Assembly: GCF_002356355.1 (NCBI RefSeq)
Contig: NZ_AP018052.1
Coordinates: 1,736,001 to 1,800,000 of the forward strand
Reading direction: 5' to 3'
Origin: Thiohalobacter thiocyanaticus
GTDB lineage: Bacteria > Pseudomonadota > Gammaproteobacteria > Thiohalobacterales > Thiohalobacteraceae
DNA: 64,000 nucleotides
Made by a program: the position numbers and the translations under genes
Shown here: positions 4,779 through 35,856 of the stretch, piece by piece
How the letters are laid out: the number at the start of each line of letters is the position of its first letter
Position numbering within the stretch: position 1 is the first letter of the stretch
The notes under the pieces: model-generated
What the model was told of the DNA's origin: nothing
The model's input: only the letters and a program-made list of their open reading frames with translations
Databases searched by the model: none

Positions 4779-4812
4779 CGCACTGCACTCATCCTGCAAC
4801 CCATCATTGGCG

Positions 4813-5993: not shown

Positions 5994-8234
<2,241 letters not shown>

Positions 8235-8246
8235 CAGTTACACGTC

Positions 8247-17627: not shown

Positions 17628-17669
17628 GTCTCTGACCGTCGGGTAAATGCAACAAATTCTCAGTCGAGT

Positions 17670-18293: not shown

Positions 18294-18333
18294 GTTCACC
18301 TCCATATTTTTTAACCGAAATCATTTGGGAAAT

Positions 18334-18983
18334 TCACCTTTTTGTTTCGGCCCTTGTGGGCCTTGGTTGGTCGTCACGGGTTTGCTGTGGCCTTGGTAAA
18401 AAGCGTTCGCAATATCGCCGGTCCGTGTCCCACAATCCGGCGATAGCCTCCGGCTCGCCTTTGGCGCAGTGGCCAAGGTGCGGATGGTCGATTCGCTCAA
18501 AGTGGATGCAGTCGGCGCAGCGGACGGAGCAGGGTCGCTGTATCGGTTTATCCGCTGCCCGATTCCAGCACCAGGGGCAGCCCAGCACTTCGCCGGAGAA
18601 CCACAACCAGATCGGGCCGCAGTGCTTGCAGGTGGCCTGTTCGGTGTAGTGCTCCGGGCGTTTGTCCTGATCCATTTCCCGGCGCTGCACAAGTGAGCGG
18701 GCGAATGCGGCGAGCGTGTCGGCACTGACCGCGCCTTTACCCCAGTCCTCGATGTCTTCCGCTGCGAGTGCTTCCTTTACCTCGGGGGCGTGATGTCGAG
18801 TCCGTTGCAGGCGTCGGCCAGTGCCTCCAGTAGCTTGGAGTTTTCCTGTTCTGAATCCCTATACGCAGAATCCGCACTATCCGCACAATTGCCCTGCTCG
18901 GTGGGGTTCTGCGCATTCTGCGAATTGTGCGTATAGAGGGTTTCCGTTGAAGCGGGAACACCGAGGGTTTCGCGCCAGCTCAT
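18334..18983 (-). pseudogene. Cys-rich island protein, split by a frameshift
   Basis: The first part (18983 to 18777) gives 68 residues, MSWRETLGVPASTETLYTHN to GLDITPPR, then stops. The reading continues in another frame as EVKEALAAEDIEDW, leading into a Cys-rich half (ATCKHCGPIWLW, GCPWC, CSVRCADCIHF, GHCAKGEPEAIAGLWD, YCERFLP) that ends at 18334. The join is at a run of five C (plus-strand G, 18784-18788); one extra base restores a single protein of about 215 aa. Its ATG overlaps the DUF3987 stop (ATGA). Either a real mutation or a homopolymer sequencing error. Cys pairs suggest zinc binding; function unknown. Confidence 0.7.
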
Positions 18984-20503
18984 CGCCAAGCCCTCGCAAT
19001 CTCTGGCCTGACCCGCACTATGGGCGAGGGCGGGCGGCCCGGTCCGTCTCGCAGTGGTTCGGTTACCTCCAGGTAGCCACGCTCTTCCAGCGCATCCAGG
19101 GCTTCGCGTAGCATGGCGACGCGGGGGAAGGTGCCGCGCAGGGCGTTGAAGGCTTCGCGCACGGTGAAGCGGTCCAACCGGCCCCGTTCGATCCAGTCCC
19201 ACACCAGGCGGGCGGCGGCAATGGTGGGATCGGCGCCCATCATGTCCAGTGCCGCCAGACTGTGACGGGTGATAACGGCCATGATCTCCAACGCGGCGGT
19301 CATGGTTTCAGCGGTGATGGCGGCCTCCCATGGTGTGCCGTGGGCGTGCTTGATGCCGTGCAATACCCCGGCCAGCCGTGCCGCCGCGCCCGGTGCCTTG
19401 CCTGCCCAATCGGTGAAGTGCTCCAACTCCCGACCCGGTTGCATCTGCACCTCGATGGCTTGAGCGAAGGCGTACCACTCCGCATAAGCTTCATCACTCA
19501 GGCGCAGCAGGTGGGAGCGTTGCTCGCCATGTTCGTCAGTGACGGGTTCCCAATCGAGCATGGCGCGGAGGCCGGCCGCATAGGCGTCGCGCACGCCTTC
19601 CGGAACGGGCTTGGACTGCAAGGCGCGATAGCCCAGCGGGGATGGCGGTAGCAGATAAAGAAACCGCCCCAACAGTCCCCGGCCCCGGAATCCCGGTTTA
19701 GCCGCCAGTCCCCGCAACACATCCGGCTGTGGGCTTAGGCCGATACTCAGGCGCGGGCCTTTCAGGAAGACCGGCGGACGGCTCCCCCGGTCCACGCGTT
19801 CCGCGTCCCCGCTATGGGCTTTCAACACCAGGTCCAGGTTGGGGATGCCGTTGGAGTAGCGGCCTTGCAGTAGATCGAAGACGCCGCCCTCCGACGACAG
19901 CCAGGCCATGCACTCGCCATGCTCGGCCAGCAGTGCGCCCAGTCGCTCCGGGGTGGCGTCTGATGTCCAAATCTGCGGCTGCATGGGGATGTCGGGAAGT
20001 TCGGCCTCGATGTCGGCCGCCTCCCGCGCAAGCTCCGCCGCCTTGCCGTTGTCTTTCTCCTTGGCGGCCTTGTTGCGCTTCTCTTTGGCGCGGGCTTCCA
20101 AGGTCTTGCGTTCGCTGGTGATGCGCTTGATCTCAGGCTCAAGGATGGCAGCCTGATCCCTTTCCCAGGCGACCAGCGGCGCGGTCGCGGCGGACTGCAC
20201 CGCGCTCTTGCGGTTGCCAGGCGGCAGGGCCACCACGGCCCACAGGTTGCAGGGCTCAAAGTAACCCGGCTTCACCATCACCCGCAGACGGCGGGCGGCA
20301 GCGGTGGCACAGGCGACCAGGACCATCCCGGCCGCCAGTTCCGGTGGCGTCTCGGTATCGGTCGCAATGGCGCGGGCGTAGTCGCCGGCCCAGCCGGGCA
20401 GGTGTACGAGATCGAGGCGGGGAAGATTGGGCGCATCCAGCGGCACCAGTTCCGGCCAATCCTCGGGCGGTGGCGCGGCGGTCTTCAGCAGGTCGGCGCT
20501 CAT
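18980..20503 (-). CDS. DUF3987 (YfjI-like) replication-associated protein
   Basis: A 507-aa protein of the DUF3987 family, found beside primases in phages, plasmids and satellites and thought to act as a replicative helicase or its partner. PPGNRKSAV (about residues 95-103) takes the place of a Walker A loop. A charged coiled-coil follows (about 120-170), and the last 70 residues look like a winged helix (FTVREAFNALRGTFP ... ALEERGYLEV). It overlaps the toprim gene upstream by 4 bases (ATGA), so the two are translationally coupled. Confidence 0.8.
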   Translation of the reverse strand: MSADLLKTAAPPPEDWPELVPLDAPNLPRLDLVHLPGWAGDYARAIATDTETPPELAAGMVLVACATAAARRLRVMVKPGYFEPCNLWAVVALPPGNRKSAVQSAATAPLVAWERDQAAILEPEIKRITSERKTLEARAKEKRNKAAKEKDNGKAAELAREAADIEAELPDIPMQPQIWTSDATPERLGALLAEHGECMAWLSSEGGVFDLLQGRYSNGIPNLDLVLKAHSGDAERVDRGSRPPVFLKGPRLSIGLSPQPDVLRGLAAKPGFRGRGLLGRFLYLLPPSPLGYRALQSKPVPEGVRDAYAAGLRAMLDWEPVTDEHGEQRSHLLRLSDEAYAEWYAFAQAIEVQMQPGRELEHFTDWAGKAPGAAARLAGVLHGIKHAHGTPWEAAITAETMTAALEIMAVITRHSLAALDMMGADPTIAAARLVWDWIERGRLDRFTVREAFNALRGTFPRVAMLREALDALEERGYLEVTEPLRDGPGRPPSPIVRVRPEIARAWR

Positions 20504-21387
20504 GCTTCACCTCGCGCCAGCCACACGGCCAGATCGTTGAAGTCCGTCAGGTGCTCGGGTGCGTCTTTCGGCCACTGGGGCAGGGCGAGCAGCGCATCCG
20601 ATGCAATAGCGGCGGCCTTGGCCTTGGTGGCGCCGGGATTCCCCGCCGTCAGCCGGTCATCGTCCCCCGCAATCACCAGTTCGGCGGATGGCCAACGGCG
20701 GCGGGCAGCCATTGCAACCGGTTCCAGGTTGCCCGCGTCGATGGCCGCCAGTACCAGCGCGGTGGGTTCGTCCTCGGCCAGGGTGCAGCCGGTGGCCCAG
20801 CCCTCGCAGATGAGGACACGGGCGGGGTTTCCCATCTCACCTGCCACGGGAATGAAGCAGCCCCGTTTGCGCCCGCCGGAGAGCAGCAACTTACCGCCAT
20901 CGGTGGCGATGAATTGCAGGCTGGTCAGCTTCCCAGTGAAGTCCATTACCGGCAGCGTCAACGCGCCTTTGTGAATCCTCGCGCCGTGCGGCTGGATGCA
21001 CTTGCGGGCAAGATAGGGGTGCGTCTTTGGGGTGGGGGTTGCCGCGTTCCAGATTGCAGCGGCACGTTTCGCCGCCTCGGTCTGCCGGGCGCGCTGCTCA
21101 GCCTCGGTCTGTTGTTTCGCGGCTTCCACCCGGCGCGCGAATGCGGTCCGTTCGGCCCGTGAAAAGGGTTTGTTGCGCTTCGCCTGCCAGGTGTTCGAGA
21201 GACCGGAGGACCAGTCTCCGAAGCAACCACCCAGCCCGTCATCGAACAACAGGCACCAGCCCGCCCGGTTGGCCGGGCGTTTACCGGCGCCGGGGAAGCG
21301 ATACAGCTTGCCCGCTTCCAGAACGTCCGGCGGCTCCAGCCCGGCGGATCGCATAGCGTCGCGGAATTGGGAGATCGCATTATTCAT
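20500..21387 (-). CDS. Toprim-domain primase-like protein
   Basis: A 295-aa protein. The N-terminal part has a DUF7146-type region (LYRFPGAGKRPANRAGWC, GCFGDWSSG) and the C-terminal part a toprim fold with CEGWATG (acidic Glu of motif I) and IAGDDD (metal-binding Asp). Such proteins prime replication of integrated elements. GGGAGG precedes the ATG. It overlaps the small gene upstream by 8 bases and the DUF3987 gene downstream by 4. Confidence 0.82.
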   Translation of the reverse strand: MNNAISQFRDAMRSAGLEPPDVLEAGKLYRFPGAGKRPANRAGWCLLFDDGLGGCFGDWSSGLSNTWQAKRNKPFSRAERTAFARRVEAAKQQTEAEQRARQTEAAKRAAAIWNAATPTPKTHPYLARKCIQPHGARIHKGALTLPVMDFTGKLTSLQFIATDGGKLLLSGGRKRGCFIPVAGEMGNPARVLICEGWATGCTLAEDEPTALVLAAIDAGNLEPVAMAARRRWPSAELVIAGDDDRLTAGNPGATKAKAAAIASDALLALPQWPKDAPEHLTDFNDLAVWLARGEA

Positions 21388-21568
21388 CGTGCGTACCTCC
21401 CATGCGGTTGATCCGCTGCGCCAGTCCGATGGGGAACCAGCCCCAAACGGCCAGGGTGACGACGGCCGCTTTTACGCGGCAACCGATGCCGGTAGAATGA
21501 CAGGTGTGCTTAGAAGTCTTCAGGGTCGCCTGGTGCCAGCCAGCGCGGCCCTTTCTGTTTCTGGTCAT
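21380..21568 (-). CDS. Small hypothetical protein of the island replication module
   Basis: A 62-aa basic protein, MTRNRKGRAGWHQ, with a hydrophobic stretch AAVVTLAVWGWFPIGLAQ near residues 34-51. Similar short proteins commonly sit between AlpA and primase genes in proteobacterial islands. GGGGAGG precedes the ATG, and its end overlaps the primase start by 8 bases. Function unknown. Confidence 0.6.
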   Translation of the reverse strand: MTRNRKGRAGWHQATLKTSKHTCHSTGIGCRVKAAVVTLAVWGWFPIGLAQRINRMGGTHDE

Positions 21569-21583
21569 CGCTCTGGCCTCCCC

Positions 21584-21781
21584 TTACCGTGCAGCCTTAC
21601 GGCTGGCCTCGATCTGCCGGTTCAGCCAGGCATTCACCTCCGCCTCTACCCAACCCACGGCACGGCCGCCGAGGGAGACGGGCTTCGGGAAGCTGCCTTC
21701 CGAAATACGCAGATAGATGGTGGAGCGAGAAAGGCCGGTGCGAGCCTTGACGGCGGGAAGTCTGAGGATTGCGGTAGCCAT
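21584..21781 (-). CDS. alpA: AlpA-family excisionase/regulator
   Basis: A 65-aa MerR-like helix-turn-helix protein: LRLPAVKARTGLSRSTIYLRISEGSFPKPVSLGGRAVGW is the AlpA signature and VEAEVNAWL ends the domain. AlpA proteins activate or assist excision of P4-like elements and are the master inducers of Gram-negative PICIs. The ATG at 21781 has AGGAGG 8 bases upstream. It heads the leftward primase/DUF3987 gene string. Confidence 0.9.
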   Translation of the reverse strand: MATAILRLPAVKARTGLSRSTIYLRISEGSFPKPVSLGGRAVGWVEAEVNAWLNRQIEASRKAAR

Positions 21782-21924
21782 GTTTGCGCCTCCTGAGGCG
21801 TTGTTGAACATGGCTCCATTGCGAACGAGCTAGGGGACTGTCCTTCAAGCTGTCTCGTGGAATGCCGCCCCAGGCCGCAGTGCAGCGCGATTTCAGCGAC
21901 AGTACGAGCTAGCCCCTGTCGGCG

Positions 21925-22692
21925 TTACCAGCCCAGGCTGGGTTTCTTTGGCTCGGTTTCCTCCTGTAAAAGCTGTTTCACGCGGGTGACGGAAATCCCT
22001 TCCTCTTCGGCGACGGTCTTCAGGAATGCCTTGACGCCCTTGGCCTTGAGTTCGTCCACGCGCCTCTTGAGACGTTCCCGGCGTTGGGTTGCCGATTCGG
22101 TATCCCCGGCCCCGGCGACGGGTTGATCGACCAATCGGGTCAGCCGCCGCTTGTCCACCTTGAAGTTATTGCCCTCAAGTGTGAGCACTTCGGTGAGCTC
22201 GATGGAATGACCGGCCAGGTTCAGGGTGAGCGCGCCTTCGGTCGTCAACACAACGTGGCTGGCGTGCTTCTTTCCCTTGAGTAACCCGACTTCCCAGCGG
22301 GCGGCATCGGTGTCGCCGGTTCCGGAGCGATGCAGGTCAAGCAGGTTTGCCACCACGGCGGCGATCGATTCGGCGGATACCTGCCATTGCGCCAAGTCGC
22401 CTGCTGGCACCGGCACGCGGTTTATATCGCTGCGCTTGTCGCAAACGATGAATGCACGCGGATCGTTTCCTGGATTCGTCAGGACATGCACGGGCATGAT
22501 GCATTCCCGCTCGCAGCCGGGACATGCCACACTAGTGGCCGGGCGGGCTTTCTTCATCAAGCCGCTATTCGTCATCGCCTTAACGGCCTCGGCCGGCCAG
22601 CCGTTCAGCTCATGATCGCTGATGAGGATCGCCGCGCCATTCTGCGCGCCGACGCGCCCAAGGAGTTCGACCAGGACGGATTCCGGGCTCAT
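21925..22692 (-). CDS. Hypothetical island protein with zinc-finger-like motif
   Basis: A 255-aa protein of unknown function. The N-terminal third has CPGCERECIMPVHV, a possible zinc site, and the C-terminal third is strongly charged and helical (RRERLKRRVDELKAKGVKAFLKTVAEEEGISVTRVKQLL), resembling a helix-turn-helix. Its ATG overlaps the stop of the 411-aa gene upstream by 4 bases (ATGA), so they form a pair. A role in element control is plausible but not shown. Confidence 0.65.
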   Translation of the reverse strand: MSPESVLVELLGRVGAQNGAAILISDHELNGWPAEAVKAMTNSGLMKKARPATSVACPGCERECIMPVHVLTNPGNDPRAFIVCDKRSDINRVPVPAGDLAQWQVSAESIAAVVANLLDLHRSGTGDTDAARWEVGLLKGKKHASHVVLTTEGALTLNLAGHSIELTEVLTLEGNNFKVDKRRLTRLVDQPVAGAGDTESATQRRERLKRRVDELKAKGVKAFLKTVAEEEGISVTRVKQLLQEETEPKKPSLGW

Positions 22693-23924
22693 ACCCCACC
22701 GGGCACAAGCGCTTCAGCCGCTTCCGCCGCTTCTTCTTGCTCCGGTTCTTTGGGCTCGATCCCGGAGGCTTCCAGCATGTCGCGCAGCTTCAGGTCCAGT
22801 TCGTCATACTTGAGGGAGCAGGAATTGGGGTGGGTGATGCGAATGGTGACCGACTTGGCGGGCTTGTCGTTGTCTACGACCACCGAGGCCGACAGCTCCA
22901 CCTGGGTGACGTTATATAGATGCAGCGGCACGGACTTTCCAACCTTGTCGAGCAAGGTATAGACAGCATCCGGGTCCTGGGAGGCATCCGCCTCCAGCGT
23001 GATGCGGTCGCCCTTGTTCACCCGTGAGGAGAGCCGCAGCTTTTTCACCGCGACGCTTTCAATGCCACTACCCACCGCGTAGGTGAAATCAAAGCTCTTG
23101 TGGAGCAGAGGGCTCAGGTCGTAGACGCGCTCGTCCTTCGGGTCGGGTGGCAACTGGTCCAGTTTCAGGATCGCCGTGGCGAACATTCCCTGCAACGGCT
23201 CCACCGCCTTCTTCGGGCCACGGAAGTTCAGGTCCAGCGTGCCTTCCTTCTGAGAGTAAACGAAGATCACCTCAAAGGCGGGGTTGTGCGGGCGGCGGCC
23301 AAATTCGCCGTCCACCCACTCGATGCTTTGCTGGGAGTAGTCCTCGGGATAGGCGAAGAAGTAATCCAGGTCGCCCCGGCGGTAGGGCTCCACCACGCAG
23401 TTGTTGCCCCGGCCTTCGGTATGGTGGAAGTAGTTGCGGATCTGGTCGGCCAGTTGGCGGAGGCTGGCCTCGTCCACCGCCGCCGGCTTGTGGCCCATGT
23501 TCTTGCGCTTGCGCCAGTAGGGCAGGGTGTCGGCGTGATAGAAGCGGGTGGCCCCTTTCCAGCACTCGCCATGGTCCAGGTAGGTCACCATCGCCCGATG
23601 GTAGTGATTGGGCAGCGCCGACAGGGTTTCGATGAAATCCATCAGCTTGTCCTGCTCCGCCTGCATCTGCCAGCGCGCCTCGTCGATGATGGCCCGGAAA
23701 CCCTTCTCGCAGCCCAGTTCAAAGATGTCCTGGAACTCGGCATCCATGGCCTTGCGTTCATCCTCGGGCAGCACCAGCCAGGCGTCGAACAGCGCATCCG
23801 GCTTGGTCTCCTTCATGGCGCCAAAGTCCAGGTCGGCTAGGAGCCCTCGGCCCTGGAAGTACCGGGCCAGCAAGGCATTGGGCACCTGCCGGAAGAAGCT
23901 GCGGGTCGAGTAATGCCGGGTCAT
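22689..23924 (-). CDS. Hypothetical 411-aa island protein
   Basis: A large soluble protein of unknown function. It begins MTRHYSTRSFFRQVPNALLARYF and ends in an acidic tail (EPEQEEAAEAAEALVPGGV). No catalytic motif is recognised. ATG 23924 has AGGAGG 9 bases upstream. It is divergent from a ribbon-helix-helix gene and translationally coupled to the 255-aa gene. Similar proteins occur in other proteobacterial islands as far as I can recall. Confidence 0.65.
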   Translation of the reverse strand: MTRHYSTRSFFRQVPNALLARYFQGRGLLADLDFGAMKETKPDALFDAWLVLPEDERKAMDAEFQDIFELGCEKGFRAIIDEARWQMQAEQDKLMDFIETLSALPNHYHRAMVTYLDHGECWKGATRFYHADTLPYWRKRKNMGHKPAAVDEASLRQLADQIRNYFHHTEGRGNNCVVEPYRRGDLDYFFAYPEDYSQQSIEWVDGEFGRRPHNPAFEVIFVYSQKEGTLDLNFRGPKKAVEPLQGMFATAILKLDQLPPDPKDERVYDLSPLLHKSFDFTYAVGSGIESVAVKKLRLSSRVNKGDRITLEADASQDPDAVYTLLDKVGKSVPLHLYNVTQVELSASVVVDNDKPAKSVTIRITHPNSCSLKYDELDLKLRDMLEASGIEPKEPEQEEAAEAAEALVPGGV

Positions 23925-23978
23925 CGAGACGCCTCCTGCGGGTTGTGGCCACACCCATTGGATTATGCTGGATTTTAC

Positions 23979-23994
23979 TGTACATTGCAGTACA
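23979..23994. promoter_or_regulatory. Inverted repeat, candidate operator
   Basis: TGTAC-N6-GTACA lies in the gap between the divergent 411-aa gene and the ribbon-helix-helix gene. It is a likely binding site for the latter protein. Inferred from symmetry and position only. Confidence 0.4.
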
Positions 23995-24022
23995 TTCTCA
24001 GTCTACCAATCCGAGGGCGAAG

Positions 24023-24217
24023 ATGGCCACCGCCAAGACTACGACCCTGACCTTCCGCATCGAGCCGGGCCTGAAAGAGGCGCTGCGCGAGGCTGCGAAC
24101 CGTGAGCATCGTTCCATCGCCAACATGGTGGAAGTGCTAATCCGGGACTATTGCGGGCGCAATGGCATCACTATTCCGGAGCAGCGAGAACTGCTTCGTG
24201 ATAGCGGCAAGGATTAA
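24023..24217 (+). CDS. Ribbon-helix-helix (CopG/Arc-like) protein
   Basis: A 64-aa protein: a basic strand TTTLTFRIEPGLKEAL, then helices ALREAANREHRSIANMVEVLIRDYC, the RHH pattern. The ATG at 24023 is chosen because the sequence MATAKTTTLTFR starts the fold directly; an upstream in-frame ATG adds 26 unlikely residues. It precedes the helicase gene by 30 bases and probably controls the restriction operon and/or the divergent gene. No partner toxin is next to it. Confidence 0.78.
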   Translation: MATAKTTTLTFRIEPGLKEALREAANREHRSIANMVEVLIRDYCGRNGITIPEQRELLRDSGKD

Positions 24218-24247
24218 AAGCGCAACCGCCGCCGGGAGATGCCTGCC

Positions 24248-27200
24248 ATGAAACTGATCGACAATATCAATGAGCTTCTCGGGGATGATCTGCGGCGGAC
24301 CATTAAGCCCGGCGCGAAGCTCAAGATCGCCGCGTCCTGTTTCTCAATCTACGCATTCGCAGAGCTGAAGGAGCAGCTGGAATCCATCGAATCCCTGGAG
24401 TTCATTTTTACATCACCGACCTTCGTCCCGGATGAAGTGACGGATAGCGGTCGCAAGGTTCGGCGCGAGTTTCATATCCCCAAGGCAGAGCGGGAACGGA
24501 GCTTCTACGGTAGCGAGTTCGAGATACAGTTAAAGAACAAGCTGACGCAGCGGGCTATCGCCAGGGAGTGCGCCGATTGGATGCGGCGCAAGGCAGCCTT
24601 CCGCTCCAATCGTAGTAAAGCACCGATGCAACAGTTCGCCTGCGTCAACACGGGAAACGGAGAAGCCGTCTATCAACCTCTTTATGGTTTCACCGCCGTC
24701 GACCTGGGTTACCAGCAAGGCGACGCAGTTTCGAATTTCGTGAACAGGTTCGACGATCCCACTTACACCGGAAATTTTCTTCGGCTATTCGATCAGATCT
24801 GGAACGATCCGGAAAAAATCGAGGACGTGACCGAGAGGCTTTGCGACCACATTGCTTCCGTCTACCAGGAAAATTCACCGGAGCGCATCTACTTTCTGAT
24901 GCTCTACAACATCTTCAACGAATTTCTGGAAGACATCAGCGAGGACGTCCTGCCGAACGACCGCACCGGCTATCAGGACAGCCTGATCTGGAACAGGCTC
25001 TACAGCTTCCAGCGGGACGGGGCGACTGGCATTATCAACAAACTGGAAACCTACAACGGCTGCATCCTGGCTGACAGCGTGGGCCTTGGCAAAACGTTTA
25101 CGGCGTTGGCCGTTATCAAGTATTACGAGCTGCGCAATCGTTCCGTGCTGGTGCTCTGCCCCAAGAAGCTGGCGGACAACTGGCTCAACTACAACCGGAA
25201 CCTCACCACCAATCCACTGGCGAAGGATCGGTTCAACTACGAGGTCCTCTGCCATACGGACCTTCAGCGCACCAGCGGAGAATCCTTCGGCACCCGCCTG
25301 GATCGGGTCAACTGGGGCAATTACGACCTGGTGGTGATCGACGAATCACACAACTTCCGCAACAACGACGTCTTCAAGGATCGGGAGACCCGCTACCAGA
25401 AGCTGATGAACAAGGTGATTCGTGAAGGGGTCAAGACCAAGGTCCTGATGCTCTCCGCAACGCCGGTCAACAATCGCTTTACCGACCTGCGCAATCAGCT
25501 CGCGTTGGCCTATGAAGGCGAATCCGATGCGCTTAGCGCCAAGCTGAGGACGGAGACCGACATCGAGGAAATCTTCCGCCGCGCCCAGACCGCCTTCAAC
25601 GCCTGGTCCCGGTTGCCGCCGGATGAGCGCACGGCAGACGCCATTCTGGATGCGCTGGACTTTGACTTCTTCGAGTTGCTGGACAGCGTCACCATCGCCC
25701 GCTCCAGGAAGCACATCGAGCAGTTCTACGACACGACGGAAATCGGCACCTTCCCGGAGCGTCTCAAACCGCTGGCCTTTCACCCGCCATTGACACAGCG
25801 CAGCGACGTGATCGGGTTCAACGAGATCTACACGCAGCTGTCCACGGTCAAGCTCGCCGTCTATGCCCCGGTGAATTACATCCTGCCTAGCCGCTTGGCG
25901 AAGTACGAGGCGCTCTACGATACCGAGGTCTCCAGCGGCGGTGGTCGGCTAAAGCAGGCCGACCGTGAGCGCAGCCTCCAGGCGCTAATGACCACCAACC
26001 TGCTCAAACGTCTGGAAAGCTCGGTAGAAGCCTTCCGCATCACCCTGCAAAAGCTCCAGGACAACCACACCCGCACCCTGGAGAAAATCGCGACCTACAA
26101 GAAAACCGGCCGCGACCCTGGCTTTGCGGATGTCACGGCCGGCTTTGCGGATGCAGAACCGGAGGACGAAGAATTCCTGGCCGCAGACGATGAGTCCATC
26201 GGCGGCAAGGTGCGCATCAGCCTGGCCGACATGGATCTGCCGTCCTGGGAGCGGGACCTTGAGGCGGATCTGAGCATCATTGCGGCCTTGCTGGCCGAGA
26301 TGCAAAAAGTCACCCCGGAGGACGACACCAAGCTGCAACACATCAAGGCGCACATCAACGACAAGATCAACGCGCCCATCAATCCCGGCAATCGCAAGGT
26401 CATCATCTTCACGGCCTTCGCGGATACCGCCCATTACCTCTACCGCCACCTGGTGCCCGGGGTTCTCGAAGCGCACGGCCTGCACAGCGCCATCGTGACG
26501 GGCTCTGATGCGCCCAAATCAACGCTGGGCAGGGGCTACGACTTCCAGTCCCTGCTGACCCTGTTCGCGCCCAATGCCAAGGACAAACACTATGTCTTGC
26601 CGGACGAGTCCAACGAGATCGACCTCCTGATCGCCACCGACTGCATTTCCGAAGGGCAGAACCTTCAGGACTGCGATTACCTGATCAACTACGACATCCA
26701 CTGGAACCCGGTGCGCATCATCCAGCGCTTTGGGCGCATCGACCGCATCGGCTCCCCCAACGCCAGCATCCAGCTGGTCAACTACTGGCCGGACATCAGC
26801 CTGGACGAGTACATCAACCTCAAGGAACGGGTCGAAAACCGCATGGTCATCGTCGATGCCACCGCGACGGGTGACGACAATCTGCTCGATACCGAGGCCA
26901 GTGAAATCGCCTACCGCAAGGAGCAGCTCCGCCGCCTCCAGGAAGAGGTGATCGACATGGAAGACGTCAAGACCGGCGTTTCCATCACCGACCTGGGGCT
27001 CAACGACTTCCGCATGGACCTGCTCAATTACATCAAGACCCACGGCGAGCTGGCTAACCTGCCCAGCGGCCTGCACGCCGCGGTCCCTGCGGACAGCGAC
27101 CGTGGCCTGGTGCCGGGGGTAATCTTCACCCTGCGTAACCGCAACCATGCGGTGAACATCCAGCAGCAGAACCGCTTGCACCCGTTCTACCTGGTCTATA

Positions 27201-27520
27201 TCGCCAATGACGGCGAAATTATCGCCAACCATACCGAAGTAAAGCCTCTGCTGGACCTGGCCCGCGCCGCGTGCCGGGGGCGGGGTGACCCCATCCAGGC
27301 CGCCTGCCAACCCTTTAACCAGGCCACCGACGACGGCCGCAACATGGGCTTCTATTCCGACCTGCTGGACCAGGCCATCCGCAGCATCGTTCAGGTGCAG
27401 GATGAAAAGGACCTGGACAGCCTGTTCACCGGATCACGCACCAGCGCTCTCACCAACCCCATTGCCGGGCTGGATGACTTCGAACTGCTGTCTTTCATCG
27501 TGGTGCAGGAGGCGCGATGA
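24248..27520 (+). CDS. SNF2-like helicase with degenerate PLD-like N-terminus
   Basis: A 1090-aa protein. About 1-180 resembles a phospholipase-D-type domain (LKIAASCFSIYAF, GFTAVDLGYQQGDAVSNFVN) but the HxK motif position reads MQQFACV, so nuclease activity is doubtful. The ATPase follows: Walker A ADSVGLGKT, DESH in VVIDESHNFRN, LSATPVNN, then the second RecA-like lobe with FTAFADT, ATDCISEGQNLQ and QRFGRIDRIGS. The second ATG (24248) is chosen because GGGAG lies 9 bases before it. It overlaps the next gene by 4 bases. Likely a DNA-remodelling or translocase part of the restriction locus. Confidence 0.85.
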   Translation: MKLIDNINELLGDDLRRTIKPGAKLKIAASCFSIYAFAELKEQLESIESLEFIFTSPTFVPDEVTDSGRKVRREFHIPKAERERSFYGSEFEIQLKNKLTQRAIARECADWMRRKAAFRSNRSKAPMQQFACVNTGNGEAVYQPLYGFTAVDLGYQQGDAVSNFVNRFDDPTYTGNFLRLFDQIWNDPEKIEDVTERLCDHIASVYQENSPERIYFLMLYNIFNEFLEDISEDVLPNDRTGYQDSLIWNRLYSFQRDGATGIINKLETYNGCILADSVGLGKTFTALAVIKYYELRNRSVLVLCPKKLADNWLNYNRNLTTNPLAKDRFNYEVLCHTDLQRTSGESFGTRLDRVNWGNYDLVVIDESHNFRNNDVFKDRETRYQKLMNKVIREGVKTKVLMLSATPVNNRFTDLRNQLALAYEGESDALSAKLRTETDIEEIFRRAQTAFNAWSRLPPDERTADAILDALDFDFFELLDSVTIARSRKHIEQFYDTTEIGTFPERLKPLAFHPPLTQRSDVIGFNEIYTQLSTVKLAVYAPVNYILPSRLAKYEALYDTEVSSGGGRLKQADRERSLQALMTTNLLKRLESSVEAFRITLQKLQDNHTRTLEKIATYKKTGRDPGFADVTAGFADAEPEDEEFLAADDESIGGKVRISLADMDLPSWERDLEADLSIIAALLAEMQKVTPEDDTKLQHIKAHINDKINAPINPGNRKVIIFTAFADTAHYLYRHLVPGVLEAHGLHSAIVTGSDAPKSTLGRGYDFQSLLTLFAPNAKDKHYVLPDESNEIDLLIATDCISEGQNLQDCDYLINYDIHWNPVRIIQRFGRIDRIGSPNASIQLVNYWPDISLDEYINLKERVENRMVIVDATATGDDNLLDTEASEIAYRKEQLRRLQEEVIDMEDVKTGVSITDLGLNDFRMDLLNYIKTHGELANLPSGLHAAVPADSDRGLVPGVIFTLRNRNHAVNIQQQNRLHPFYLVYIANDGEIIANHTEVKPLLDLARAACRGRGDPIQAACQPFNQATDDGRNMGFYSDLLDQAIRSIVQVQDEKDLDSLFTGSRTSALTNPIAGLDDFELLSFIVVQEAR

Positions 27521-28260
27521 CCGAGCAAACAGGCCATCCGGCACTCATCGACTACCCCGAGCGCGCGCGGGTGGGCCGGGTGGTGCCCAAGAATCGCATC
27601 GTGGTGTCTGGTGCGCCGGGTCGGCGCGTGCGCGATAAGCTCACCAGCCAGGTGGCCCGAATCACCTGGCAGTACAAGTTGGCACAGGAAACGCTGAACC
27701 TGAAGGGCAGCAAGGCAGTGCCGGAAATTCAGATATTCCGTGTAGCGCTGAAGCCGGCCGGTGTCACCGATGAGTTGCCGGTGGATGTGTTGAAGTGCAT
27801 CGACCGTGCTATTGGCTTTCCCATCATCTTTGAGCTGACCAGCAGCCGCGAGGACGGCGCAACCCGTGATGCTATCCGGGTAGCGGCCACCTACAAGCGG
27901 CCCAGTGAGGCCGATGCCAGCAAGTGGGTGCTTGACGACTACTTTGCCACTGACTGGCTTCCGGCGGACACACTCCGAACACCGCTGCCGGTGGCGCTGG
28001 ATTTGTCCCGGCTTTATGAGCAGCTTCTGCGCGAACTGCTCCCCATCCAGGCTCGGCCGGGCGAGTCTATGGTGGCCCTTATGGAGCGCCACAGCCGCAT
28101 TACAGCAAAGCAACGCGAGTGCCGGCGACTGGAAGCCCGCATTCAGCGGGAAAAACAATTCAACCGCAAGGTCGAGCTCAACCGCCAGCTACGGGCGTTG
28201 AAGGCGGAACTCGACACCTTGCGAGAAACGACCATCGAAGGAAATAAGCAACATGGCTGA
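27517..28260 (+). CDS. DUF4391 domain protein
   Basis: A 247-aa protein of the DUF4391 family, recognised from VPKNRI ... VRDKLTSQVARITWQYKLAQETLNL and the later PEIQIFRVALK and GFPIIFEL. The last 65 residues form a basic coiled coil (CRRLEARIQREKQFNRKVELNRQL). DUF4391 genes sit beside helicase and type III Mod/Res genes; their function is not established. Start and stop overlap the neighbours by 4 and 8 bases, which shows tight coupling. Confidence 0.85.
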   Translation: MTEQTGHPALIDYPERARVGRVVPKNRIVVSGAPGRRVRDKLTSQVARITWQYKLAQETLNLKGSKAVPEIQIFRVALKPAGVTDELPVDVLKCIDRAIGFPIIFELTSSREDGATRDAIRVAATYKRPSEADASKWVLDDYFATDWLPADTLRTPLPVALDLSRLYEQLLRELLPIQARPGESMVALMERHSRITAKQRECRRLEARIQREKQFNRKVELNRQLRALKAELDTLRETTIEGNKQHG

Positions 28261-30247
28261 AGAACCGACCCTCGACAAGCTGAAAATGCACAGCCCCGAT
28301 CTGAGTCAGGACAACATCGCCAAGATTCGCGAGCTGTTCCCCGGCTGCGTAACCGAGGCCCGGGACGAGGTGACCGGGAAGCTGCGTCTGGCGGTGGATT
28401 TTGATCACCTGCGTCAGGAACTGAGCGACCATATCGTGGAGGGGGGGCAGGAGCGGTATCGATTGGACTGGCCGGGGAAGCGAGAGGCGCTGGCGCTGGC
28501 GAATGCGCCGATTGACCAAGCGCTGCGGCCAGCTCCGGAGGAAAGTTTACAGTTCGAAGCCACCAAAAACTTGTTTGTTGAGGGCGACAACCTTACCGCG
28601 CTCAAGTTGATTCAGGACACCTATCTTGGGCAGATTAAGCTTATCTATATCGACCCACCCTATAACACGGGAAAAGACTTCCTCTATCGCGATAGCTTTG
28701 CTTCTGACCAGGTGACGCAGGAGCTTGCTGCAGGTGAGCGGAGCGAGGAGGGAGCCCGCTTGGTAGCAAATCCGGAAGGAAATGGGCGGTTTCACTCCAG
28801 CTGGCTGACGATGATGGCGCCGCGCCTAAGGCTAGCCCGGAACCTCCTGAAGCGCGATGGAGCCATTTTTGTTTCCTGCGACGAAGGTGAGCAGCCACGC
28901 CTGCGTTTGATTATGGACGAGATATTCGGCCAGGCCAACTTCGTGGCCGATATGGTATGGGCGGCTGGGCGAAAGAATGATTCGCGGCTTGTGTCAGTCT
29001 CTCACGAGTACATCGTTTGCTATGCGCGTGACGCGGAGTACCTACGGGAAAACAAAGTCGTATGGCGCCAACGCAAAAAGGGGCTGGATGAAATCTATGC
29101 TCAGTATGAGCGGCTGAAGCGGCGGCATGGCAACGATTACCAAGCGATGACTGAGGGATTGAAAGAATGGTATCGGCAGCTTGCGGATGGCCATCCCGCC
29201 AAGGCGCATAAGCACTATAGCAATATTGATAATCGTGGAATTTACTTTGCGGCTGATATCTCTTGGCCCGGTGGCGGCGGCCCCAAGTATGAGGTTATGC
29301 ATCCGGTTACCAAGCGACCTGTAAAAGTTCCAGCGCGGGGCTGGATGACGCCTGATTCTAATAAGATGGAAGAGTGGATTCGCGATAATAGGGTGCACTT
29401 CGGCGAAACCGAGGAGTCGGTACCCTGCATAAAGAAATACCTCAAGGACAGTGAGTACCAGACGCCTTACAGCGTGTTCTATCAGGACGGTCGGGCCGCT
29501 TCGAAACGCCTGCGCGCACTGATGGGGGGCGACCTGTTTAACTTCCCCAAGGATGAACTGGTGCTACAAGAAGTCATCGAGATGATGACTGAGGGAGATG
29601 ACATCATTCTGGATTTCTTTGCCGGCTCTTCAACTACAGCCCATTCAGTCATGCTTCAGAACGCCGCCGACGGTGGCAACCGCAGGTTCATCATGGTTCA
29701 GCTCGATGAGACCGCGGACGATAAGTCTGAAGCATACAAAGCCGGCTTCAAGACCATTCCCGAGGTCAGCCGCGAACGCATCCGCCGCGCCGGCAAGAGA
29801 ATAATTGAGGGCGGCGACTGCCACGCCGACTGGAACCGCGATGTCGGCTTCCGGGTGCTCAAGATAGATACCTCCAACATGAAGGACGTCTACTATCGCC
29901 CCGACGAGCTGAAGCAGTCCGACCTGCTCGATATGGTCGATAACGTGAAGGAGGACCGCACCGCCGAGGACCTGCTGTTCCAGGTCTTGGTTGATTGGGG
30001 CGTGGACCTGACGCTGCCCGTTCGCCGGGAGACGGTGCAGGGCAAGACCGTATTCTTCGTCGACGACAACGCCCTGGTCGCCTGCTTTGACCAGGGCGTC
30101 ACGGAAGAACTGGTGAAAGAACTGGCCGGCCACGAGCCCCTGCGCGTGGTCTTCCGCGACAACGGTTTCGTCTCGGACGCAGTCAAGATCAATGTGGAGC
30201 AGGTCTTCCGCCAGCTCTCGCCCACTACCGAAGTCAAGTCGATTTGA
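28253..30247 (+). CDS. mod: Type III restriction-modification methyltransferase (Mod)
   Basis: A 664-aa N6-adenine DNA methyltransferase of the beta class: the catalytic motif [14 protein letters not shown] comes first (about 134-145) and the AdoMet motif [14 protein letters not shown] later (about 448-460). The central part (about 200-400) is the target-recognition region and is notably less GC-rich than its flanks, a common sign of exchange of specificity domains. It gives sequence specificity and protects host DNA. It pairs with the Res gene 19 bases downstream. Confidence 0.94.
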
Positions 30248-30266
30248 GGGCGGCGAGGGAATAATT

Positions 30267-33200
30267 ATGAAGTTTAAGTTCAAGGTCCAGCCCTACCAGA
30301 CCAACGCCGTTAACGATGTGGTGGGCTGTTTCGCCGGCCAGCCCATGACGTCGGGGTTGAGCTACCGCATCGACCCGGGCCGCACGGCGCAGGCGAGCGC
30401 CTTCGAGGAAGGGTTCAAGAATGCCGATATTGCGCTGTCCGAGGCACAAATTCTGGAGAACATCCAGAAGGTCCAGCGGCGGCAGAACCTGTCGGTATCG
30501 TCGTCCTTGACCGATTTCACGACCTTCAACAAAAAGGGCGAGCGAGTGGCGGCGCCAGCGGCCTACAAGAAGGACGCGCTGGCCGCCACTCGCGTTCATC
30601 TCGATGTGGAGATGGAGACCGGCACGGGGAAGACCTACTGCTACATCAAGTCCATTTTCGAGATGAACAAGAGCTATGGCTGGTCGAAGTTCATCATCAT
30701 AGTACCGTCGATCGCCATTCGTGAAGGGGTGTACAAGTCCTTCCAGGTGACCGCCGAGCATTTTACCGAGAGCTACGGCAAGAAGGCGCGATTCTTCATC
30801 TACAACTCCAAGCGCCTGCATGAGGTGGAGAGCTTCTCCTCGGATGCCGGGATCAACGTGATGATCATGAACATCCAGGCGTTCAACGCGCGCGGCAAGG
30901 ACAACCGCCGGATCTACGATGAGCTGGACGACTTCCAGTCGCGCAAGCCCATTGATGTGATCGCCTCCAACCGCCCGATCCTCATTCTGGATGAGCCCCA
31001 GAAAATGGAGGGCAAGGCCACCATGGAGGCCCTGCCCAAGTTCAAGCCGCTGTTCATCCTGCGCTACTCGGCCACACACCGCGCCCAGCATAACCGTGTG
31101 CACCGGCTGGACGCCCTCGATGCCTACAACCAAAAGCTGGTGAAGAAAATCGCGGTGCGGGGCATTCAGACTCGTGGCCTGGCCGGGACCAATGCCTACC
31201 TCTATCTGGAGGGCATCGACATCTCGAAGAAGGCCCCCGTGGCCCGTGTCGAGCTGGAAGTGAAACTGAAGTCGGGCGAGATCAAGCGGCAGCTGCGCCG
31301 ACTGGAATTCCGTGATGACCTGTTCGTCGAATCGGGCGAACTGGATCAGTACCGGGGATTCACCATCAGCCAGATCGATGCGGTCAACGATACGGTGGAG
31401 TTCACCAATGGCGCTGTATTGAAGGCCGGCGAGGCCAGCGGCGATGTCACCGAGCGCGACATCCGGCGCATCCAGATCCGCGAGACCATCAAGGCGCACC
31501 TGGACAAGGAAAAGCAGCTCTTCGCCCAGGGCATCAAGGTGCTGTCGTTGTTCTTTATCGATGAGGTGGCCAAGTACCGCGACTATGACCAGGCCGATGA
31601 GAAAGGTGAGTACGCCCGGGTCTTCGAGGAGGAGTACGCCCTGCTCAAGGATGAGTATCTGTCGGAGCTGACGATCGACAACGAAACGTATCGGAAGTAC
31701 CTGGATAACATCGAACCGGGCAGCACGCACAACGGCTACTTCTCGATCGACAAGAAAACCAACCGGCTCAAGGACCCGGCGGTCGGCGCTCGCTCGGTCG
31801 ATTCCGATGATGTTGACGCCTACGACCTGATCCTGAAGGACAAGGAACGCCTGCTGGACTTTGCCGAGCCGACCCGGTTCATCTTCTCCCATTCCGCGTT
31901 GCGCGAGGGCTGGGACAATCCAAACGTGTTCGTCATGTGCATGCTCAAGCACAGCGACAACACCATTTCCCGTCGCCAGGAAGTTGGCCGGGGGCTGCGC
32001 CTGAGCGTCGACCAGCACGGCGATCGTATGGACCATCCGGCCGTTGTGCACGACATCAATGTGCTGACGGTGGTGGCGAGCGAAAGCTACAAGGACTTTG
32101 TGGCGGGACTGCAGCAAGAGATTTCGGAGACTTTGTCATCGCGTCCGCGCCAGGCGACGGAAGCCTATTTTACGGGTAAGACGATTACCACGGACCAGGG
32201 AACGACCGAAGTAACCGCCGCGATGGCGAAGCAGATCTATCGCTATCTTCTGAAGAATGACTACACGGACGATGCCGACCATATCGTCAGTGCCTACCAT
32301 GATGCCAAGGCCGCCGGGACGCTTGCGGAGCTGCCCGAAGAGCTGAAGCCCCACGCGGAGCAGGTCTTCCAACTGATCGACAGCGTGTTCAGCGACGCGC
32401 AAATTCCGAAGGTGGATGACGGGCGTAAACCCAAAACCAACCCTCTCAATACGAACTTCGAGAAGAAAGAGTTCCAGGAGCTGTGGGCGCGGATCAATCG
32501 CAAGGCGGTGTACCGGGTCGAGTTCGATTCAGCGGAACTGATCAGGAAGTGCGTCAGTGCGCTGGACAAGGAGCTGCGCGTCACCCCTCTACAATACACC
32601 GTGCAGGCAGGTGTTCAGAACGATGGCTTGACTGATGAGCAGCTGCGGCGTGGTGACGGATTTGAGGTGCAAGAGACCACGACCGAGTACGGAGACTCAA
32701 TTCATTCTGTCGTGAGGTACGACCTGATCGGCAAAGTTGCAGCGAATGCGGAGCTCACTCGAGACACGGCCGCGACGATCCTGGGCCGGATTCAGACCGC
32801 AGTGTTCGGACAGTTCAAACAAAACCCCGAACAGTTTATTTCCGAGGCCTCGCGTATCATTGCTGAGCAGAAGGCATCCATGGTTATCGAACGTTTGGCC
32901 TACGATGAGGTGGATGAGCGCTATGACGCTGACATCTTTACCGCTAACCAGACCGCGCAGGACTTTTCGCGCGCTACGGCGAAACTCAAGAACCACGTCT
33001 ACGACTACGCGATCACGGACTCTGACGTGGAAAGGGAATTCGTCAAAGAGCTGGATACGAGTAGCGAAGTCGTCGTCTACGCCAAGCTGCCGCGCGGCTT
33101 TCTGATTCCAACCCCGGTCGGTGATTACAACCCAGATTGGGCCATATCCTTCAAGGCCGGCACTGTGAGGCACATCTACTTTGTGGCAGAGACTAAGGGG

Positions 33201-33368
33201 ACGATGTCCTCGATGAAGCTGCGTGAGATCGAGAAAACGAAGATCGAATGCGCCCGTAAATTCTTCACCGAAATCAGTCAGAGGATCACTGAAGACCGCG
33301 TCAAGTATGACGTCGTCACGGATTACGCAAGGCTGATGGATGTGGTTGGACGGGTTGCCAGTACCTGA
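30267..33368 (+). CDS. res: Type III restriction enzyme Res subunit
   Basis: A 1033-aa helicase-nuclease. Walker [11 protein letters not shown] lies at about 117-126, motif II is DEPQ (about 240) and motif VI is in [12 protein letters not shown]. The C-terminal endonuclease has PDWAI and, about 20 residues later, ETK, the PD-(D/E)xK core, so the nuclease looks intact. The ATG at 30267 follows GAGGGA. Type III Res cuts unmodified DNA after ATP-driven communication between two sites. Confidence 0.94.
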
Positions 33369-33746
33369 TCGAGGGTTTCGCTTCGCCGGTGAACGGAACC
33401 TCCGTCCGATCCGGCATCGAACATTCAGTTGCCCGGCGCACAGATCATCAGGCCGGGGTTAAGGGCTTCGGACCGCCCGTCACGCCGCTTGCAAGCTACG
33501 CGGCAAGCGCCGCGCCGGGCTGCGTCGTGCCAGGATTCGGGGCCGCCAGACTGCCTCCGCAAGCTCCGGCAGACTGGCTCCGTGGCTTCGTTCGACGCCT
33601 GGCCCCTTCGTTCCCGCCCGCACTCCGCCACGGCACCCTTCGCCCCAAAAGACGGGGCCAAGGGCTTGCGGCTCCGCAGCGGGCTGCGCCGTGCCGGGAT
33701 TTACCGCTGCCGGATGCTTTGCAACCGGCTCGGTGGCTTCGGTCAG

Positions 33747-33785
33747 CGTTGGTTCCCTTCGTTGGTTCCCTTCGTTGGTTCCCTT
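33747..33785. repeat. Three tandem copies of a 13-base repeat
   Basis: CGTTGGTTCCCTT is repeated exactly three times head to tail, followed by a partial fourth copy (CGTTG). Confidence 0.9.
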
Positions 33786-33938
33786 CGTTGCCGCTTGCGC
33801 GGTGGCACTGGCAGGCCCGGCATTCGCCCGGCCTGCCGCGCCCCCGCACGGCGCTGCGCTTTCCCGCCCGCAATTATCTCAGGCTTCGGTAAAGGTTCGG
33901 TGCGCCCTGCCCAGCCAGGGTCGGTGTCGGCAACTGAA

Positions 33939-34007
33939 CATAATGCTGGGAATTATGCGCAGCACAAAAGGCGTGCTGTCCGCTTCGCCGCATAATTTGC
34001 ATTATGT
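33939..34007. other. Nested inverted repeats resembling recombinase sites
   Basis: The outer pair is ACATAATGC (33939-33947) and GCATTATGT (33999-34007); the inner pair is ATTATGCG (33952-33959) and CGCATAAT (33989-33996). The right part reads CGCATAA-N6-TTATGTG, close to the arm/spacer plan of XerCD dif sites. It could be a recombination site or an operator. Confidence 0.55.
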
Positions 34008-34083
34008 GTAAGTTGCCTCCGCCTGTTCTTGACCCCCCGCCCGCCTGCCCGTCCGCCCCCAAGGGGCTCCCTGGGGGCTTCGC

Positions 34084-35301
34084 TCAGGCGCTCTGATTCA
34101 TCGGAATGACTTCGGCGCCGGCTTTCAGCTTGTCGAGGTAGTCCGCCCACTTCTGCATCATCTTCCGCCGCTCCCGTAGGTGGGCCGTGCGGTTGTAGGC
34201 GCGTCCGTTCGGATCGCGCACGGCGTGGGCGAGCTGGTGCTCGATGAAGTCAGGCCGAAAGCCCAGTACTTCATCCAGGATGGTACGCGCCATCGCCCGG
34301 AAGCCGTGGCCGCTCATTTCTTCCTTGCTGATTCCCATGCGTCGCATGGCTGCGAGGATGGCGTTATCGCTCATGGGCTTGTCGCCCCTGGGATTCCGGG
34401 CGCTGGGGAAAACGTATCGGCCGTTGCCTGTGAGGGGATGCAGCTCGCGGAGGATGTCCATGGCCTGGCGGGAGAGGGGGACGATATGCGGTGTATTGGT
34501 CTTCTTCACCGTATAGCGCCACTCCGCTGCATCCAGATCGATGTCGGCCCATTCGGCATGGCGCAGTTCGCCGGGGCGGACGAACACCAGCGGCGCAAGG
34601 CGCAGGGCGCAGCGCACGGGGAGGGTGCCTTCATACCCATCCAGAGCGCGTAATACCTCGGCTACTTTCTTGGGCTCGGTGACGGAGGCGAAATGCGTTC
34701 CCTTGACCGGTGGCAACGCGCCGCGCAGATCGCCGGTGGGGTCACGTTCGGCCCGGCCGGTCGCCACGGCATAGCGGAACACCTGGCCACAATTGCCAAG
34801 GGCACGATGCGCGGTTTCCAGGGCGCCGCGCTGCTCAATTCGACGAATGACTTCCAGCAGTTGCGGGGCGGTGATGTCGGCGACGGGCTTGCCGCCGAGC
34901 CACGGGAAGATGTCGCGCTCCAGGCGGCGGATGATTCGGTCGCCGTGATTGGCTGACCAGTTGGGGGAGTGCTTGGCGTACCATTCGCGGGCGACCGCCT
35001 CGAAGCTGTTGGCCGCTCGCTCCACCTTCGCGGCCTTGGTGGCCTTGCGGTTTTCGCTGGGGTCGATGTCATTGGCCAGCAGCTTGCGCGCCTCGTCCCG
35101 CCGATCACGGGCATCCTTCAGGGATACATCGGGATAGACACCCAGGGAGAGCCGCTTCTCCTTGCCCCCATATCGGTACTTCAGCCGCCACCACTTGCCC
35201 CCGCTGGGGGCAACTTCCAGATACAGCCCGCCGCCGTCAAAGAGCTTCCGGGCCTTATCGCCGGCTTTGGCGTTGCGGATGGCGGTATCGGTGAGGGGCA
35301 T
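34084..35301 (-). CDS. int: Tyrosine integrase, P4 type
   Basis: A 405-aa site-specific recombinase. The DUF4102 arm-binding domain (about 3-90, LTDTAIRNAKAGDKARKLFDG, KRLSLGVYPDVSLKDAR) is followed by the catalytic domain with R242, H332-x2-R335, H359 and nucleophile Y369. ATG 35301 is the natural start of the family; an open frame runs 42 codons further, into the tmRNA terminator. It is placed 164 bases from the tmRNA 3' end, the expected position for an integrase whose target is that gene. Genes that restore excision (AlpA) lie 12.3 kb away. Confidence 0.95.
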   Translation of the reverse strand: MPLTDTAIRNAKAGDKARKLFDGGGLYLEVAPSGGKWWRLKYRYGGKEKRLSLGVYPDVSLKDARDRRDEARKLLANDIDPSENRKATKAAKVERAANSFEAVAREWYAKHSPNWSANHGDRIIRRLERDIFPWLGGKPVADITAPQLLEVIRRIEQRGALETAHRALGNCGQVFRYAVATGRAERDPTGDLRGALPPVKGTHFASVTEPKKVAEVLRALDGYEGTLPVRCALRLAPLVFVRPGELRHAEWADIDLDAAEWRYTVKKTNTPHIVPLSRQAMDILRELHPLTGNGRYVFPSARNPRGDKPMSDNAILAAMRRMGISKEEMSGHGFRAMARTILDEVLGFRPDFIEHQLAHAVRDPNGRAYNRTAHLRERRKMMQKWADYLDKLKAGAEVIPMNQSA

Positions 35302-35464: not shown

Positions 35465-35856
35465 TGGTGGAGGCGGCGAGAATCGAACTCGCGTCCGCAG
35501 GTCCTCCGCCATCGGCTCTACATGCTTATCCGCGCCTTTGTATTTAACTGCCGGCTACCCGACGGGCAGGGAAGACCAACAGCGATTCCGGTTGGAGTTT
35601 AACGAATCTGCCCCGGACGAGCTTCATCGCGATCCTGTGAGAATCGACGCCTGAATGTCCCGTCTACCCGAAGGTATAAAGGACTCTGGACGCACAGGCA
35701 CGGCTCCAGTCAGACGGCATTCTACCGGTTTTTAAGCGGCGAGTGCGTAGTTGTCGTCGTTGGCAACTATGATTGTACAGATGGATTTACGAGGGAATCT
35801 GTATCCTCGGCATGCACCTCAGGTTTTGTAACCCACGTCGAAACCAGGTCGCCCCC
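35465..35856 (-). ncRNA. ssrA: Transfer-messenger RNA (tmRNA)
   Basis: A 392-base tmRNA. The 5' end GGGGGCGACCTGGTTTCGACG and 3' end with TTCGATTC and CGCCTCCACCA form the tRNA-Ala-like half; the acceptor stem includes the G3-U pair used by alanyl-tRNA synthetase. The tag frame (35732-35764) encodes ANDDNYALAA followed by TAA, one residue different from the Escherichia coli tag. It rescues stalled ribosomes with SmpB, whose gene is just upstream. The island integrase targets its 3' end. Confidence 0.97.

Follow-up and report, generated by a model that had tools for sequence, protein, structure and literature searches.

The window, a stretch of 64,000 nucleotides of the Thiohalobacter thiocyanaticus chromosome, contains a genomic island that adjoins the ssrA (tmRNA) gene (35465–35856, minus strand). 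A tyrosine integrase with an arm-binding domain is encoded by int (34084–35301, minus strand), with a length of 405 amino acids if the methionine of MPLTD is the start. Between int and the cargo lies a conserved non-coding tail of approximately 620 nt (33470–34083), which begins at its cargo end with H1, a two-tier stem-loop (GCCCG..CGCTTGC..GCAAGCG..CGGGC, 33470–33520), continues with degenerate repeats of ~165 nt and ends in the hairpin H2, located ~70 nt beyond the int stop codon. The variable defence cargo (24239–33368, plus strand) encodes an HKD and Snf2 helicase, a 247-amino-acid ORF, a type III methylase and a restriction enzyme. The island backbone (17013–24217, minus strand) encodes a DUF3987 protein, a toprim protein and further ORFs, with a small RHH-like ORF, identified by weak Pfam matches, on the plus strand at 23945–24217. 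Arhodomonas aquaeolei (L160) has look-alikes of the backbone ORFs, compared by eye, that follow the same order. The window shows no second copy of the ssrA end, so the left boundary given for the island is approximate. Neither terminator-like nor promoter-like sites were detected between 33350 and 34200, and no Rfam match was obtained in the H2 region.

Read directly from the sequence, H2 is composed of two inverted dif-like sites within 33929–34017, with 29 nt between the sites. The left site (33938–33959) is written ACATAA-TGCTGGGAA-TTATGCG on the plus strand; the site reads on the minus strand, where it is CGCATAA-TTCCCAGCA-TTATGT with a 9-nt centre, and its fuller XerC-type arm is GCTGCGCATAA. 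The right site (33989–34007) reads CGCATAA-TTTGCA-TTATGT on the plus strand and has a 6-nt centre. The inner arms are the XerC-type CGCATAA and the outer arms are the XerD-type TTATGT. An outer stem encloses both sites through pairing of GGCAACT (33929–33935) with AGTTGCC (34011–34017), which undergo compensatory changes in relatives, and an inner stem-loop, CAGCAC-aaaaggc-GTGCTG (33960–33978), is closed by pairing of 33960–33965 with 33973–33978. The 89 nt of H2 are therefore ordered as outer stem, ACATAA, 9-nt centre, TTATGCG, inner stem-loop, 10 nt, CGCATAA, 6-nt centre, TTATGT and outer stem. An earlier note on this DNA had reported nested symmetrical inverted repeats at about 33936–34008 with 6- and 9-nt centres. 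The letters are as it described and its four arms are all present, but the outer and inner stems were overlooked, and the full feature is 33929–34017.

The outer and inner stems allow one strand to form a forked hairpin in the predicted fold. The DNA fold of 33930–34017 has an energy of -23.8 kcal/mol (z = -4.9), and none of 1000 shuffled sequences is as low. Stability alone is unremarkable in this GC-rich window, as equal or greater stability is found in 149 of 5811 88-nt windows taken at steps of 11 nt. A single instance of the four-arm pattern is present in the 64-kb window, and none in 200 dinucleotide-shuffled windows. The only other single-site dif match in the window is located at 323–344, with 3 mismatches, and the window contains no dif module of the Acinetobacter type, in which a gene segment lies between two dif-like sites. 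The fold, the family of related hairpins, covariation and a strand bias all enter into the assignment of H2 to the minus strand, the putative folding strand.

H2 is not the chromosomal dif of the host. A perfect dif, CGCATAATGTATATTATGTTAA, lies elsewhere, at 1,972,017 of the 3.23-Mb chromosome (G000:C1:1972017) and ~202 kb from H2, and has a different centre. A genome-wide search with CGCATAA-N6-TTATGTTAA found the true dif with no mismatches and the right half of H2 as the second-best site with 2 mismatches. At 3 mismatches, the same search returned 5 sites and its reversed control 8, which makes a lone dif-like match modest evidence; the weight rests on the inverted pair. In the comparison with the host dif that the earlier note had proposed, the arms are alike but the centres TTTGCA and TTCCCAGCA differ from the host centre TGTATA; the XerC-side centre bases are TTT and TTC in H2 and TGT in the host dif, and do not match. 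This mismatch of the centres makes a plain XerCD exchange between H2 and the host dif unlikely. In a dif search of 14 other genomes, in which the reversed control was often as frequent as the true pattern, candidates with the centre TGTATA or a near variant stand out in G087, G101, G123, G203, G211 and G222, and the hairpin centres of these six differ from those of their own dif candidates. No candidate stands out in G153 or G265 in this search.

Relatives of the island were sought, the earlier note having named their lack of this block beforehand as grounds for refutation, and the block is present in some of them. Among the best 80 of 322 loci matched by integrase similarity, a few of which end right after int, direct reading identified an intact hairpin in five (L013, L017, L018, L022 and L039). 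These five joined the training set of a covariance model built from nine hairpins, and their model scores (E below 1e-17) are therefore high by construction. The model found no further intact hairpin among the best 80 of 322 loci and matched a half hairpin in L016 (E 0.23); the five intact loci and L016 all adjoin ssrA. None of 18 IMG/VR loci with related integrases carries the hairpin. The tails of L013, L018, L022 and L017 exhibit 79–91% identity to that of the window, and this homology ends sharply at one shared point, which is H1 and not H2, with unrelated cargo beyond. In A. aquaeolei (L013/L160), the backbone is seemingly shared and the cargo is a different type III system; the cargo slot of the ssrA island extends over 24217–33470 in the window and 6358–12720 in L160, with a sharp boundary at the tail.

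Within the tail, conservation is concentrated in the hairpin arms. Across five sequences, the arms and adjoining centre bases are variable in 1 of 39 gapless columns, whereas beyond the hairpin 149 of 492 columns vary (p = 2.4e-5). All seven island-type copies (the window, L013, L017, L018, L022, L039 and L008/L201, the last at a contig edge) have a right-site centre of 6 nt, and the left-site centre varies from 6 to 9 nt. Damaged copies also occur: L238 and a second copy in L157 are cut in the site centre, L016 is cut just inside the XerC-type arm, and L004/L161 and L023 contain half or decayed hairpins. These copies are too few for crossover points to be read from them. Between L018 and L022, identity is 79.8% in int and 95.5% in the tail, rising from ~80% to 93–100% inside the last part of int and staying high throughout the tail. 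This jump inside the int end indicates that homologous exchange of the tail also occurs, which is a simpler route for cargo swapping. Tail and int identity exhibited no significant correlation over 15 pairs (Spearman 0.28, p = 0.31).

The predicted fold is also supported by covariation. An alignment of 29 matches, produced by fitting to the model and including both strands of some hairpins, has 91.6% standard pair cells versus 78.4% after shuffling and a covariation of 0.355 versus 0.152, a value reached by none of 500 shuffles; slid controls gave 28–43% standard pair cells. When the window and 18 relatives each contribute a single strand, standard pairs make up 577 of 623 cells. In these 19 loci the outer-arm core ACATA/TATGT is identical throughout, and the XerC-type arms form seven pairs, three of them identical in all 19 loci and the remaining four in 16 to 18. 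Changes on both sides of a pair are located in the outer stem, the centre-flanking pairs and the inner stem, so that the arms are near-invariant and the stems compensatory. The dif-type reading of the earlier note has accordingly held up and is better supported than the note could show, by a pair of inverted dif-like sites with conserved arms and compensatory stems and by the occurrence of relatives in several genera.

The strand that folds was assessed from G-T wobbles and A-C mismatches, with the strand that scores best under the model used for each locus. Wobbles outnumber mismatches 38 to 5 overall and 19 to 1 when the helices of arms and centre are taken by themselves; counted as distinct events, the ratios are 20 to 4 in all helices (p = 0.0015) and 9 to 1 in the arm and centre helices (p = 0.02). 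The bias is 17 to 0 in helices 1–3 of the island and XerC-element copies. Where both strands were listed for such copies the choice is far from a tie (106 versus 41 bits in the window), and the copy in the viral contig L116 is tied. In all five island loci with visible cargo (the window, L013, L017, L018 and L022), the strand that folds runs antisense to that upstream cargo, as it does to the upstream XerC gene or gene end in all seven loci of the second type (L150–L152 and L155–L158). Judged from these patterns, the minus strand seems to be the one that folds, in an orientation antisense to the upstream cargo.

The second setting of the hairpin is an element encoding a XerC-like recombinase. 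The covariance model was searched in 369 genomes of the class and matched 10, four of which (G000, G211, G123 and G087) contributed training hairpins and match by construction. A XerC-like recombinase family scoring well above the background of host XerC and XerD is present in six of the ten (G087, G101, G153, G203, G222 and G265); G000, G211, G123 and G098 carry the hairpin without this family. Based on a gap in scores, the family is present in 9 of the 369 genomes, comprising eight with E-values of 2.7e-82 or better and a 44%-identical fragment in G153. The hairpin occurs in 6 of these 9 genomes and in 4 of the 360 others (p = 5e-9), or in 5 of 8 versus 1 of 357 when the training genomes are excluded (p = 6e-9); G309, with a half hairpin at a contig end, was left out of this count. 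The window genome showed no such XerC-like element; its best match is 38% identical and is taken to be the host XerC or XerD.

The gene order of the element is an HTH regulator, a protein of ~1000 amino acids with CHC2 and toprim domains, the XerC-like recombinase and then the hairpin, which lies 0.24–0.87 kb downstream of the XerC-like gene in L150, L152, L155, L156, L157 and L158, some of these elements being incomplete. Exceptions are L153, with the hairpin upstream of the primase gene, and L154, with a XerC remnant alone near the hairpin. In L197 (G309), the H1 motif follows the XerC stop codon by 18 nt and the first half of H2 follows at the contig end, with the hairpin oriented as in the window. 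A strict H1-like pattern occurs between the XerC gene and the hairpin in 5 of 10 XerC loci (L152, L155, L197, L198 and L200). The XerC-like protein of L007 scored 142 bits against the integron integrase model TIGR02249, below its cut-off of 265. The IS91 family was rejected as the owner of the XerC-like gene; the neighbouring HTH and CHC2 primase genes gave it no support. The HTH, CHC2-toprim and XerC-like genes recur together in L150, L152, L155, L156, L157, L158, L197 and L200, in part as incomplete elements, and several of these elements adjoin Rhs core or tip fragments, with at most three recombinase copies per genome. L157 contains two hairpins in the same orientation ~5.2 kb apart (3002–3124 and ~8219–8310), each behind the end of a XerC-like gene, and the right site of the second is cut. 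In L158, a 172-bp direct repeat (92% identity; 2640–2811 and 4683–4854) begins ~100 bp past the hairpin and flanks a cassette-like segment with a small ORF.

Folded single-strand attachment sites have been described for CTX-type phages and integrons. The integron attC recombines as the strand antisense to the cassette gene and consists of two boxes, with the consensus GTTRRRY, on either side of an unpaired asymmetric centre. Integron integrases are generally regarded as descendants of Xer-type enzymes. H2 resembles attC in its location at the 3′ end of cargo, in a folding strand that is antisense to the gene by wobble bias and in its two boxes around an unpaired asymmetric centre. It differs in that its boxes are dif arms, with no GTTRRRY attC boxes in 33929–34017, and in that no integron integrase was found beside it, int being an arm-domain integrase, and no cassette array of cargo was seen in the inspected loci. 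The attP of the CTX phage has a pair of oppositely oriented dif-like sites, their centres 12 and 7 nt long (El Tor), that form a forked hairpin used by XerC and XerD (PMC3089051), and the folded site is lost upon integration of the prophage (PMC5357621). H2 likewise has opposed dif-like sites with unequal centres of 6 and 9 nt and a forked hairpin, here in silico. By comparison with the CTX attP, its sites are 29 nt apart rather than ~90, its centre is unmatched to the host dif and its hairpin is intact in the integrated state; the island also has its own integrase and is located at ssrA rather than dif.

Two further Xer systems were compared. The plasmid sites cer and psi are Xer sites on a replicon that act as single duplex sites with accessory proteins (PMC5357621), and the pdif modules of Acinetobacter associate genes with Xer sites that flank them (PMC12907356, PMC13141974). 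H2 is an inverted pair, unlike the single sites of cer and psi, and its two sites lie 29 nt apart in a single hairpin, unlike the sites placed around genes in Acinetobacter. Accessory sequences are also used at cer and psi. The literature searched, consisting mostly of titles and the starts of abstracts with subscription papers largely outside it, contained no description of a hairpin of paired dif sites, either in integrase islands or associated with CHC2/XerC elements. A conserved hairpin that retains true dif arms and seemingly folds antisense to the gene, placed 3′ of both anti-phage cargo and XerC-like primase elements, would connect the CTX-type and integron sites and offer a testable account of the swapping of defence genes in ssrA islands.

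We consider it moderately probable that the hairpin represents a Xer/dif-type recombination site formed by a folded single strand, which serves, or formerly served, the movement of cargo; by analogy, it is best read as having the plan of the CTX attP and the placement of attC. The computed evidence comprises the sequence, predicted fold, conservation, compensatory change, strand bias and shared tail motif, and from it we infer binding, strand exchange, the enzyme used, a partner site and present activity. The strand antisense to the cargo would become single-stranded, the two inverted dif-like sites would pair, and their pairing would yield a single duplex in which a bulged centre separates the XerC-type from the XerD-type arm. 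This folded duplex could then be bound by a tyrosine recombinase of the Xer type, which would exchange strands, the candidates being host XerC/XerD or, in trans, the XerC-like enzyme of the related primase elements. In the window, where H2 forms the 3′ end of the tail behind restriction-modification cargo, it probably serves, or served, to move cargo or to join it beside the integrase. An attC-like role fits better than plain CTX-type integration owing to the position 3′ of the cargo, the strand and the tail features common with the XerC-like element; plain CTX-type integration is further disfavoured by a centre unlike that of the host dif and by hairpins that are intact in integrated islands. 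Several findings count against the folded-site reading: neither recombination products nor empty sites were found, the sharp cargo break coincides with H1 rather than H2, the centres differ from that of dif in the window genome and in the other carriers with a clear dif, few of the integrase loci examined carry the hairpin, a XerC-like element was not detected in the window genome and the hairpin is intact at ssrA beside int. A broader proposal, which we put forward tentatively and as rather doubtful, is a dif-derived, attC-like system intermediate between Xer/dif and integrons, in which XerC-like/CHC2-primase elements and defence cargo share a 3′ tail ending in the double-dif hairpin, a single-strand site that would move cargo such as restriction-modification genes and perhaps Rhs tips.

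Other explanations account for parts of these data. H2 could be a double-strand Xer site that resolves multimers of the excised, replicating island, with the right half working and the left half accessory. The constant 6-nt right centre beside a left centre of 6 to 9 nt and the primase-like DUF3987 and toprim genes of the backbone fit such a role; the compensatory outer stems, the strand bias and the position behind XerC-like genes would be unexplained, and the right site has the poorer XerC-type arm relative to the E. coli dif. We regard this as unlikely. To a similar degree we doubt that H2 is a passively carried relic of a former XerC/CHC2 or IMEX-like element, with tails kept as homology for cargo exchange. 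That history would account for the half, cut or decayed hairpins (L016, L004/L161, L023, L238 and the second L157 copy), for the exchange of the tail independently of int between L018 and L022 and for the absence of the hairpin from most of the best 80 of 322 related integrase loci, but not for arms that are far more conserved than the remaining tail or for compensatory changes that keep the fold.

Transcription offers two further readings. An RNA hairpin that terminates the int transcript or structures its 3′ end would suit a position shortly downstream of the int stop codon, where genes converge, and a folding strand that is int-sense. Behind the XerC-like genes, however, the same strand is antisense to the gene, the arms are a nearly fixed dif sequence, and the region gave neither terminator-like sites nor an Rfam match, which leaves this reading very improbable. 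The least probable is the operator for int suggested in the earlier note, or for another island protein, for which four ATTATG half-sites arranged as dyads could serve. H2 is ~70 nt past the 3′ end of int and ~1.3 kb from its start, the tail-start motif and hairpin are also found behind an unrelated recombinase gene, the hairpin occurs in other elements with no such int beside it, and covariation of the outer stem is unexpected for a duplex operator; the proposal for int is unsupported.

Searches beyond these loci yielded scattered matches. The hairpin query (184 nt) had no match in plasmids, E. coli genomes or phages, and the 646-nt tail query had none in phages and one short plasmid match (CP013100.1, 10% of the query). 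In IMG/VR, the three-arm pattern matched 22 stretches, 2 of them with all four arms; the tail-start pattern and the pattern of outer stem plus two arms were absent. In 398 genomes of the phylum, the three-arm pattern had 7 hits and the reversed pattern 1. L003 and L005 matched a short pattern and look like chance. The IMG/VR contig L116 (4512 bp) has a 127-bp terminal overlap, which makes it a circle of 4385 bp, and encodes a DnaB-type helicase together with a double-dif hairpin that was also in the covariance-model training set. Of its 27 listed ORFs, 9 were scanned with Pfam and none of the 9 was recognised as a recombinase; L116 is possibly a Xer-dependent satellite.

A search for H1 matched 15 of the 369 genomes. 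In eight new regions, with G245 left out, H1 lies outside clear genes in five (G330, G147, G365, G250 and G091), and the matches in G319, G270 and G239 were treated as chance because they fall inside ORFs. H1 is located 6 nt after the stop codon of a type I restriction gene in G365 and 25 nt after a helicase gene on a plasmid in G250, with no H2 within 2.5 kb in either. Downstream of restriction or helicase genes, H1 lies 6 to ~160 nt past the stop codon (window 33470–33520, L239 4196, L240 4444 and L237 434), and in several genomes it occurs with or without the dif hairpin.

Inverted dif-like pairs ~39 nt apart are also present in four genomes of two other families (L192 7050–7090, L193 7225–7266, L195 7244–7284 and L196 7369–7409), where the pair adjoins a gene resembling methionyl-tRNA synthetase, named by eye. 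The arrangement appears as if the chromosomal dif itself were doubled, and the pairs are the best dif matches of the genome in the three searched. A similar near-perfect inverted pair in G504 (L194, 3954–3993) has a different gene context. The inverted dif pairs of those other families match the covariance model as well, more weakly.
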